Shown here piece after piece: positions 38,019 through 41,700 of a stretch of 64,000 bases of DNA (positions within the stretch are counted from its first letter, which is position 1; each line of letters starts with the position of its first letter). Location: contig NZ_MVOI01000003.1 in the NCBI RefSeq assembly GCF_002283555.1, positions 208,536-272,535 on the forward strand, given 5' to 3'. Position numbers and translations under genes: made by a program. The notes under the pieces are model-generated. The model searched no databases. It worked only from the letters and a program-made list of their open reading frames with translations, and was not told where the DNA came from. The DNA comes from Rubrivirga sp. SAORIC476. Lineage in GTDB: Bacteria > Bacteroidota > Rhodothermia > Rhodothermales > Rubricoccaceae.

Positions 38019-38045
38019 GAGGGTTGGGAATGGGGGTGTGCCGGG

Positions 38046-38075
38046 GGACACGCAGTCCCCGACCTACAGGGGACA
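38046..38075 (-). promoter_or_regulatory. ECF-type promoter, copy 1
   Basis: On the minus strand TGTCCCCT (38068-38075), 14 bases, then GCGTGTCC (38046-38053), followed 27 bases later by the ATG of the dockerin protein. Both blocks and the spacing are identical to the copies at 38726 and 41644. Confidence 0.8.
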
Positions 38076-38131
38076 CGGCGTTGATTCTCAACCGGCTGCC
38101 CGGTATCCTCCAGAGCCTTCGCTCGCGCCCT

Positions 38132-38695
38132 GTGTCCGCCGCCCCCGACGTCACGCTCCTCCTCGACGCCCACCGGGGTGGCGACGCCGACGCGCTCGGG
38201 TCCCTCCTCCCCCTCGTGTACGACGAACTCCGGCGGATCGCTCACCGGCACCTGGGCCGCGGGCGCGGCTCCGAAACGATCCACACGACGGCGCTCGTCC
38301 ACGAAGCCTACCTCAAGCTGGCACGCAGCGGCAGTGGGGCCTCCAACCGCGCCCACTTCTTCGCCATCGCCTCGACGGCCATGCGGCAGGTCCTCGTCGA
38401 CGCAGCCCGGCGGCGACAGGCGCTCAAGCGCGGCGGAGGCGCCCACGCCACGACGCTCGACGAGGGCCACGCGCTCGCCGTCGACGCCCGGGCCGACGAG
38501 GTGCTCGCCCTCGATGAGGCGCTCGGCCGGCTGGCCGCGCTCGACGCTCGGCTGGCGCGCGTGGTCGAGATGCGGTTCTTCGGGGGAATGGAGATCGTCG
38601 AGATCGCCGAGGCGCTGGGCGTCTCCGACCGGACGGTCAAGCGGGACTGGCGGAAGGCGCGCGCGCTCCTCCAGGCCGAGTTGACGGACGCGTGA
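38132..38695 (+). CDS. ECF-like sigma factor (TIGR02999-type) of kinase island
   Basis: A 187-residue sigma factor. Region 2 begins GSLLPLVYDELRRIAHRHLG and contains HTTALVHEAYLKLA and RAHFFAIASTAMRQVLVDAA, wording characteristic of the TIGR02999 group that often neighbours Ser/Thr kinases. Region 4 is LDARLARVVEMRFFGGMEIV with EIAEALGVSDRTVKRDWRKA. No anti-sigma gene is adjacent. GTG 38132 is chosen, and TTG 38081 is possible but less likely. The identical promoters around it suggest it drives the kinase and both secreted-protein genes. Its own upstream region lacks that motif. Confidence 0.88.
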   Translation: MSAAPDVTLLLDAHRGGDADALGSLLPLVYDELRRIAHRHLGRGRGSETIHTTALVHEAYLKLARSGSGASNRAHFFAIASTAMRQVLVDAARRRQALKRGGGAHATTLDEGHALAVDARADEVLALDEALGRLAALDARLARVVEMRFFGGMEIVEIAEALGVSDRTVKRDWRKARALLQAELTDA

Positions 38696-38725
38696 GCACG
38701 CGCCTGGTCCCGTCTGCAGGTTGGC

Positions 38726-38755
38726 TGTCCCCTCGTCGCTCGGTTCCGCGTGTCC
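38726..38755 (+). promoter_or_regulatory. ECF-type promoter, copy 2, before kinase gene
   Basis: TGTCCCCT (38726-38733), 14 bases, GCGTGTCC (38748-38755). The kinase GTG starts 16 bases later (or 22, if GTG 38778 is used). Confidence 0.8.
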
Positions 38756-38771
38756 TAAGGCAGCCCCGCCC

Positions 38772-41609
38772 GTGCCCGTGACCCTCCGCCCCGACGACTG
38801 GGCCCGGCTCGAGCCCTTGCTCGACGCCGCGCTCGACCTCCCGCCCGCCGAGCGAGGCGCCTACCTCGACGGCCTCGACCTGCCGCCCGAGGAGCGCGCC
38901 CGGCTCGACGCTCTCCTCGCCGCCGACGCCGACGACGCGCCCGTCCTCGACCACCCCGACCGCCTGGGCGCGCTCGTCGAGGCGGCCGACCTCGGCGGCG
39001 GGGGCGCCATGCCCGGCGCGCGCGTCGGGGCCTACCGCATCGTGCGCGGGATCGGGCGGGGCGGAATGGGCACCGTCCACCTCGCCGAGCGAGCCGACGG
39101 GGCGTTCGACAAGCAGGTGGCGCTCAAGCTGGTCCGCCCTGGCGTGGCCGAGGGGCTCCTCGCCCGGTTCCGAGCCGAGCGCCAGATCCTCGCCCGCCTC
39201 GACCACCCCGGCATCGCGCGGCTCCTCGACGGCGGCCGCGCCGACGACGGCCGCCCGTTCCTCGTGATGGAGCACGTCGCGGGCGAGCCGATCACGGCCT
39301 ACTGCGACACGCGGCGGCTCTCGGTCGAGGACCGGCTGGCCCTTTTCGGCCAGGTCTGCGACGCCGTCGCCTACGCGCACCGCCAGCTCGTCGTCCACCG
39401 CGACCTGAAGCCGTCGAACATCCTCGTCACCGACGGCGGGCGCGTGAAGCTGCTCGACTTCGGCATCGCCAAGCTGCTCGACGATGGCGCCGAGCGGTCG
39501 CTCGTCCGCACAGCCACCGAGCAGCGGCTCTTGACGCCGGCCTACGCGGCGCCTGAGCAGGTCCGTGGCGAGCCGCCCACGACAGCCACCGACGTGTACG
39601 CCCTTGGCGTGCTCCTCTACGAGTTGCTGACGGGCCGCCGGCCGTACCGCCTGCCGAGCCGCGCGCGCCACGCCGTCGAGCGGGCGATCCTCGAAGCCGA
39701 GCCGACGCGCCCCAGCACGGCTGTCACCGAGCCCACCGACGACGCGCCGACGGCGACCCTCGCTGAGGCGCGCGGTGCCGAGCCCGGCCGGCTCCGCCGC
39801 CGCCTCGCGGGCGACCTCGACGCGGTCGTCCTGACGGCGCTCCGAAAGGAGCCCGACCGCCGCTACGGATCGGCCGACGCGTTCGGCCGCGACGTCCGCC
39901 GCCACCTCGACGAGCTCCCGGTCGAGGCCCGGGCCGATTCGGCGGCCTACCGCGCGGGCCGGTTCGTGCGTCGGCACCGGGCGGGCGTGGCGGCCGCCGC
40001 GCTCATGGCCGTCCTCTCGCTCGTCTACGTCGTCACGCTCCGCGCCGAGCGTGACCGGGCGCGGACCTCCGCCGAGACGGCCGACGCCGTGACCGAGTTC
40101 GTCGTCGGGCTGTTCGCCGCGCCGGACCCGTCGTCGGGCGCCGGGCGCGACCTCACCGTCCTCGCCGCGCTCGACGGCGCCGACGAGCGGATCGAGGCCG
40201 ACCTCGGCAGCCAGCCGGCCGTCCAGGCCCGGCTCTATGACGTGCTCGGGCGGCTCCACGTGGGGCTGGGCGGCTACGAGGCCGCGGCCCGCTTCCAGGA
40301 CCGCGCCGCCGACCTCCTCCGCGCGCTCCACGGCCAGCGCCACCCCGACCTCGCCTCGGCCCTTCTCTGGACCGGCCGGCGGCTCCACCTCGAAGGGCGC
40401 TACGCCGAGGCCGACTCAGTCTACCGGCTCGTCGAGGCGGCCCTCCCCGCGCGCGCACCGGACGGCCTTCGCCCCCGGCTTCTCGCCGACCAGGGCATCA
40501 ACGCGCTCCGCGCCGGCGACCCGTCCGCGGCCGACTCGCTCCTCCGGCTCGCCGTGACCCGGCAGGAAGCGCGCGCCGCGACCGACAGCCTCCACCTCGC
40601 GTACGCGCTCAACGAGCTGGCCGTCGCCGTCCACGATGCCGGCGACCTCGACGAGGCTGAGGCCCTCAACCGGCGAGCGCTCGGGATCCGCCTCCGCCAC
40701 CTCCCGCCGATGAGCGCCGACGTGGGCCGGTCCTACAACGACCTCGGGCTCGTCCTCCGGACGAAGGGCGACCACGACGAAGCGCTGGTAGTCCACGAGC
40801 GGGCCGTCGCCGTGGCGCTCGCGGTCTACGGGCGCGAGAGTGAGAACACGGCGGCCGCCTACAACGGCCTCGCCATGGCCCACCGGGGCGCCATGCGCTA
40901 CGCCCGCGCCGACTCGGCCTTTGCGGCGTCCGAGGCCATCGTGCGGGCGACCGTCGGGCCGGAGCACCCGGTGTTCGGGTTCTTGCGGACCAACCGGGGC
41001 ACGGCGGCCCGCCTCCGCGGCGACGCCGCCGAGGCCGAGCGCCAGCTCCGCGAGGCCACTGCCCTGCTCGCGGCCACGATCGGGCCGGGCAACCCGCGCA
41101 CGGCGCTCGCCCGGCTCCTCTGGGGCGACGCGCTCGCCGACCTCGGCCGCCTCGGCGACGCGCTCGCGGCCTACGACACGGCCCGCGACGCGCTCGCGGA
41201 GGCGTTCGGGCCCGACCACTGGGAGGCGGCGCAGGCCACAGCCCGCCGGGCCCGCGTCCTCGCGCGGATGGGCGACGCGGCGGCCGCGCTCGCCGAGGCC
41301 CGCCGCGCCCTCGACGCCGCCTCCGACGACGCAGCCCGCGACGACGCACGCCTCGCCCTCGCCACCGCGCACCTCGCCGACGACGACCGGGCCGGCGCTC
41401 GCGCCGAGGCCCGCCGCGTCCTCGCCCGCCTCGACGCCGACGGCGAGACCCGCAGCGAGCGCCGCGCGGCCACCCTCGTCCTGCTCGCTCGGGCGGCGCC
41501 GGACGTCGCGACGGCCCGGCGGCGGGCCCGCGAGGCGCTCATGATCTGGGACGGCCGCGTGGCCCCGACGGCGCCGCGCGTCCGCGAGGCGGCGGCGATC
41601 GCGGGGTAG
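38772..41609 (+). CDS. Ser/Thr protein kinase with C-terminal TPR repeats
   Basis: A 945-residue membrane-anchored kinase. The glycine loop is G93-I-G-R-G-G98, the ATP-binding lysine is Lys119 (VALKLVR), the catalytic loop is His209-Arg-Asp211 (VVHRDLKPSN), DFG is at 229-231, and the activation segment continues LTPAYAAPEQV. A single TM (about 404-425) separates it from about 500 residues of helical hairpins with the TPR-like pattern, as in EALNRRALGIRLRHL and ALVVHERAVAVALAVYGRES, which may bind partners. It is 77 bases after the sigma gene. Start GTG 38772 keeps the spacing to its promoter. Confidence 0.9.
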   Translation: MPVTLRPDDWARLEPLLDAALDLPPAERGAYLDGLDLPPEERARLDALLAADADDAPVLDHPDRLGALVEAADLGGGGAMPGARVGAYRIVRGIGRGGMGTVHLAERADGAFDKQVALKLVRPGVAEGLLARFRAERQILARLDHPGIARLLDGGRADDGRPFLVMEHVAGEPITAYCDTRRLSVEDRLALFGQVCDAVAYAHRQLVVHRDLKPSNILVTDGGRVKLLDFGIAKLLDDGAERSLVRTATEQRLLTPAYAAPEQVRGEPPTTATDVYALGVLLYELLTGRRPYRLPSRARHAVERAILEAEPTRPSTAVTEPTDDAPTATLAEARGAEPGRLRRRLAGDLDAVVLTALRKEPDRRYGSADAFGRDVRRHLDELPVEARADSAAYRAGRFVRRHRAGVAAAALMAVLSLVYVVTLRAERDRARTSAETADAVTEFVVGLFAAPDPSSGAGRDLTVLAALDGADERIEADLGSQPAVQARLYDVLGRLHVGLGGYEAAARFQDRAADLLRALHGQRHPDLASALLWTGRRLHLEGRYAEADSVYRLVEAALPARAPDGLRPRLLADQGINALRAGDPSAADSLLRLAVTRQEARAATDSLHLAYALNELAVAVHDAGDLDEAEALNRRALGIRLRHLPPMSADVGRSYNDLGLVLRTKGDHDEALVVHERAVAVALAVYGRESENTAAAYNGLAMAHRGAMRYARADSAFAASEAIVRATVGPEHPVFGFLRTNRGTAARLRGDAAEAERQLREATALLAATIGPGNPRTALARLLWGDALADLGRLGDALAAYDTARDALAEAFGPDHWEAAQATARRARVLARMGDAAAALAEARRALDAASDDAARDDARLALATAHLADDDRAGARAEARRVLARLDADGETRSERRAATLVLLARAAPDVATARRRAREALMIWDGRVAPTAPRVREAAAIAG

Positions 41610-41643
41610 CCGGGAACGTCCGCAGCGCGACCGAGGCGGTCCG

Positions 41644-41673
41644 TGTCCCCTGGCAGCGGCCGCCTGCGTGTCC
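41644..41673 (+). promoter_or_regulatory. ECF-type promoter, copy 3
   Basis: TGTCCCCT (41644-41651), 14 bases, GCGTGTCC (41666-41673), then 27 bases to the next ATG, the same distance as in copy 1. Confidence 0.8.
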
Positions 41674-41700
41674 GGATGTGACGCCTCACACCCCGATCCC

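Follow-up and report, generated by a model that had tools for sequence, protein, structure and literature searches.

Probable ECF43-type promoters around a sigma factor and kinase locus of Rubrivirga sp. SAORIC476

Three exact copies of a bipartite element lie around a sigma factor gene of Rubrivirga sp. SAORIC476 and are very probably promoters read by RNA polymerase carrying that factor, an ECF43 sigma encoded at 38132..38695. Coordinates refer to the window, the whole 64,000-nt stretch of DNA that was analyzed. A preliminary description of this DNA had connected the sites with the adjacent sigma from location. Comparative evidence now supports that connection: conservation of the sites at an orthologous locus, a group-wide ECF43 promoter together with an architecture that paralogous loci share, and covariation of the sigma recognition helix with the spelling of the -35 box.

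The sigma factor locus and its three sites

The sigma factor gene (38132..38695, plus strand, GTG start) encodes a member of ECF43. As the preliminary description had anticipated, the product is of the TIGR02999 type (E=2.2e-59), scoring 200.4 bits where the cut-off is 126.15, and it also matches PF07638 at 178.8 bits (E=1.3e-52). Region 2.2 of the protein reads HTTA before LVHEAY, where the orthologue in the relative G007 has QTTA, and the sigma4 recognition helix is SDRTVKRDW. The genome (4.48 Mb, G000) encodes 17 TIGR02999 sigmas above the curated cut-off, most of them adjoining a kinase gene. At the window locus, a kinase gene (38778..41609, plus strand) begins roughly 80 nt 3' of the sigma stop codon and specifies a Hanks-type Ser/Thr kinase with TPR repeats (PF00069, E=1.4e-41; TPR_12, E=3.9e-29), the presumed cognate of the sigma. 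A divergent gene (35958..38018, minus strand) encodes an exported protein with a T9SS sorting tail (TIGR04183, E=2.3e-6, above cut-off) and a weak Dockerin_1 match that falls under cut-off (E=2.8e-4). The product of the third gene (41701..42678, plus strand) is exported and belongs to no known family.

Each of these three genes is preceded by TGTCCCCT-N14-GCGTGTCC, at 38046-38075 (minus strand), 38726-38755 (plus strand) and 41644-41673 (plus strand), and all three copies are exact, with the N14 spacer, positions and strands first described. The sigma gene sits between the first two sites. In the divergent-gene site, the putative -35 block TGTCCCCT occupies 38075-38068 and the putative -10 block GCGTGTCC occupies 38053-38046 on the minus strand. 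Distances from site to start codon are 27 nt for the divergent gene (ATG), 22 nt for the kinase gene (GTG at 38778) and 27 nt for the secreted-protein gene (ATG), in agreement with the original assignment of the motif to dockerin/T9SS, kinase-TPR and secreted-protein genes and with the exact 27-base distance reported for two copies. A simple caller based on coding potential picked the start codons; with GTG at 38772 as the start, the kinase-site distance would be 16 nt. Upstream of the sigma gene itself we found no ECF43-type site and instead a near-consensus, housekeeping-like promoter, TTGATT-N17-TATCCT (38081..38109, plus strand). TTGA-N19-TAT spacing is enriched upstream of ECF43 sigma genes in several phyla (14 of 121 loci).

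A scan of the 4.48-Mb genome (19 contigs) returned the three exact copies, all at the sigma locus, and no fourth. The next-best matches were three sites with two mismatches, none of which (0 of 3) was upstream of a gene start, and the three-mismatch tail was close to the reversed-pattern control (39 versus 30 matches in all). Thus, the regulon of the exact spelling is local. The regulon as a whole looks confined to three transcription units, although degenerate sites elsewhere may exist. Shuffling of the window covered only the looser search, allowing up to three mismatches, and the result of that search was on its own not significant; three exact 16-base matches within 3.6 kb are not chance.

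Among eight other family genomes searched, only that of G007 encodes a close orthologue of the sigma factor (73-75% identical), and its locus keeps all three sites. The divergent-gene site has no mismatches (L148:3092-3121, 27 nt to the ATG), the kinase-gene site has three (L148:3833-3862, 32 nt to the start) and the third-gene site has one (L148:6473-6502, 29 nt to the start). Sequence identity between the window and G007 has fallen to 38% for the divergent gene's product, 50% for the kinase and 56% for the third protein, and the spacers differ as well; both blocks thus appear to be under selection. With one close orthologue known, support for the exact TGTCC form comes from two genomes. Of the regulon originally suggested as likely, the three sites stand and are conserved in G007, with two refinements: the sigma gene is outside the set of genes bearing a site, and the kinase-proximal copy is the weakest of the three in the orthologue.

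Promoter sequences at other ECF43 loci

ECF43 loci were gathered from other genomes, belonging to Acidobacteriota, Ignavibacteriota, Calditrichota, Gemmatimonadota and Rhodothermota, and the stretches in front of neighbouring genes were put through a blind two-word enrichment. Start-codon signals aside, the search gave TGA[G/T]C followed by GCGT at a constant spacing: 15 regions contained TGA[GT]C-N19-GCGT, as opposed to two at a gap of 17 and 0-1 at others. At gaps of 17-19, the pair was present at 14 loci compared with a mean of 1 for anagrams (letter permutations). In a second set of 60 further ECF43 loci, five regions contained the core, compared with 0.3 on average for permutations. Many ECF43 loci are without a recognizable site.

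The strong columns of a 36-column position weight matrix (PWM), trained without the window locus and without the G007 orthologue, were TGA(G/T)C(C)..T and TT.(C)GCGT. Under it, each of the three window sites was best placed in the group's register, TGTCC lying over TGAGC and GCGTGT over GCGCGT. Scores of the window sites on this matrix were -1 to -3, with agreement in register and -10 and a variant -35, TGTCC. They are negative owing to changed inner letters: where the group has A and G/T in the -35, the window sites have T and C, and the C of the -10 is a T. We take the window locus as a variant of the group promoter. Three other candidates were rejected. A universal TGTC...TGTC motif was absent over ECF43 loci, dyads between the sigma stop and the kinase start were swamped by conserved codons of the kinase N-terminus, and a search for 6+6 bipartite repeats in each 18-kb locus, left unfiltered, returned mostly palindromes and GC-rich noise. 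In keeping with an earlier remark that no published promoter was known for the group, we found none described for ECF43 or TIGR02999 in the open literature searched.

Six family loci, the window's included, carry a locus-specific pair of sites upstream of the divergent gene and the kinase gene. At the window locus, the divergent-gene and kinase sites share one locus-specific spelling. L208 (G001), L249 (G004), L210 (G007, C244) and L176 (a paralogue from the window's own genome) have one site per gene, divergent and kinase, with shared spellings of TGATCGGT at L208, again TGATCGGT at L249, TGACCGGA at L210 and TGATCGCT at L176. A pairing of this kind is also seen at L110 (Acidobacteriota) and, less tightly, at L105 (Ignavibacteriota). 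Nine of 13 candidate pairs within a locus passed the similarity cut versus 94 of 1212 pairs between loci. Exported targets recur, since at L208, L210 and L249 the divergent gene specifies a short protein resembling lipoproteins.

Two further repeats were noted. Locus L188 of the window's own genome (C7:85000-103000) contains three copies of TGAGC-N14-AGCGCGCT (11920, 12632 and 13825, plus strand) 73-98 nt upstream of three consecutive genes resembling a conjugation (traF/trb-like) module; the spacer is shorter than that of the ECF43 register. All four exact genome-wide matches to this element are on the 139-kb contig of L188, where there is also a gene for a divergent TIGR02999 sigma (C7:93777, A167 in window numbering). 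Near ECF43 loci L250 and L251 of G004, CCTCTGGCG is repeated upstream of several genes and is possibly a dispersed repeat.

Sigma4 residue 167 and the -35 spelling

The -35 spelling varied with sigma residue 167 (window numbering): A with TGAGC, P with TGATC, I with TGACC and R with TGTCC, the last in the window and G007. Across 18 non-redundant strict-site loci, TGATC accompanied P167 in seven of seven cases, and the 11 TGAGC loci comprised ten A167 and one V167. Columns 167, 170 and 166 rank among the top of the whole sigma, and column 22 ties with them. Stricter relabelling gave nine P-T, six A-G, one A-T and one I-C combinations, the A-T exception being L105, which bears both spellings. 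L210 pairs I167 with TGACC and its sister L208 (81% identical) pairs P167 with TGATC; L173 groups with the TGATC clade yet has A167 and TGAGC. The covariation reflects approximately 3-4 independent changes, and a tree-aware independent-pairs test had too few pairs for significance and was without power. Given these two points, we regard the helix-to-box rule as a strong lead, not proof.

In-register TGTC[CG] was found with 7 of 50 other R167 sigmas, compared with 0 of 44 for A and 0 of 21 for P, and with counts at other gaps reaching 5. A TGTCC class among other R167 sigmas is suggestive only, and a clear class over all of them was rejected on these figures. In the window's own genome, the R167 paralogue L180 (C15:98000-116000; C15:106685) has TGTCCCC...TCGCGC upstream of the gene at 8542 (minus strand), a divergent gene approximately 35 nt away, and this element resembles the window -35 spelling.

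We place about even confidence in a broader proposal in which residue 167, with which the recognition helix begins, determines the inner -35 letters, paralogue-specific spelling insulates kinase-sigma pathways, and each pathway governs a small local regulon made up of its kinase gene and a gene for an exported protein. By such a rule, genomes with at least a dozen ECF43 paralogues would keep their kinase-sigma pathways apart by -35 spelling.

Other readings of the window sites were weighed against promoters for the adjacent sigma. Because TGTCC is present in both blocks, the site has the form of a direct repeat, and the three copies could be operators of a transcription factor binding TGTCC-N20-TGTCC (25-bp period). 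However, the blocks of related loci are not mutual repeats (TGAGC/TGATC with GCGCGT/TGCGT), while the register is kept and start distances are similar, and what these loci have in common is a sigma gene and usually a kinase gene; operators are improbable. We judge it just as doubtful that the sites, while being ECF43-type promoters, serve a different one of the genome's 17 TIGR02999 sigmas, or several through cross-talk. Such a reading draws on the number of these sigmas, on the similarity of their recognition helices and on the TGTCC-containing element at L180, but the window sites adjoin the window sigma only. Moreover, the three-site arrangement occurs in two of nine family genomes (own included), both with a close sigma orthologue, and other paralogues with sites have a distinct spelling, each at its own locus. 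Most improbable of all is a chance or copied, functionless repeat. The genome is GC-rich and a three-mismatch search gives many matches, yet the blocks are identical among copies whose spacers differ, and the sites are placed before gene starts and kept in the G007 orthologue.

Proposed mechanism and comparison with known systems

With the sites read as promoters for the ECF43 sigma, TGTCC(CCT) would be the -35 box, contacted by the sigma4 recognition helix SDRTVKRDW, and GCGTGT(CC) the -10 box, contacted by sigma2. The sigma would be made constitutively from the housekeeping-type promoter TTGATT-N17-TATCCT and would at first be held inactive because HTTA replaces the acidic DxxD contact of region 2.2. 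Two papers describe replacement of the acidic DxxD in ECF43 region 2.2 by a neutral QTTA/STTA-like motif, phosphorylation of whose threonine by a neighbouring kinase permits core polymerase binding (PMC13147305, PMC8999054); HTTA of the window sigma fits the phospho-threonine motif as described there. The TPR-repeat Ser/Thr kinase is the predicted sensor and, on signal, would phosphorylate the HTTA threonine. The phosphorylated sigma would then join core polymerase, leading to transcription of three units, which encode the exported T9SS-type protein on the divergent side, the kinase and the exported protein downstream. Transcription of the kinase gene by its own sigma would constitute positive feedback. 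Sequence directly shows the sites, their conservation, the group-wide promoter and the covariation; recognition, phosphorylation, signal and feedback at the window locus are inferred.

Rhodothermota, Acidobacteriota and related phyla have many kinase-activated ECF43 sigmas. The consensus TGANC-N19-GCGT, along with its locus variants and the candidate helix-to-box rule, may allow target prediction for many uncharacterized sigma-kinase pairs. Furthermore, the rule and the spellings make insulation of paralogous phospho-sigma pathways testable, and the sites are possible orthogonal promoter parts.

Canonical autoregulated ECF promoters have a -35 GGAAC and a CGTC-type -10. Like the window sites, they are bipartite, with a spacing of approximately 16-17 and a short distance to the start, and they serve genes near the sigma gene. 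In contrast, the window sites have TGNNC instead of GGAAC at -35, the window sigma gene is without such a site, and activation of the window sigma would depend on a kinase as opposed to release from an anti-sigma factor.

The ECF43 sigma EcfP of Vibrio parahaemolyticus, like the window sigma, is described in passages of PMC8999054 as having no acidic region 2.2 motif, and its threonine as being phosphorylated by the adjacent Hanks-type kinase PknT; no promoter motif for EcfP is given in these passages. As presented there, EcfP/PknT acts in the polymyxin response of a gammaproteobacterium, whereas phosphorylation at the window locus is predicted and the kinase has TPR repeats. In the ECF43 pair EcfK/PknS of Xanthomonas citri, sigma and kinase are encoded together, as in the window, and PknS phosphorylates EcfK directly (PMC13147305). 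This pair controls a type VI secretion system, and EcfK has a retained acidic residue (QATE) and linker phosphosites, where the window sigma has HTTA.
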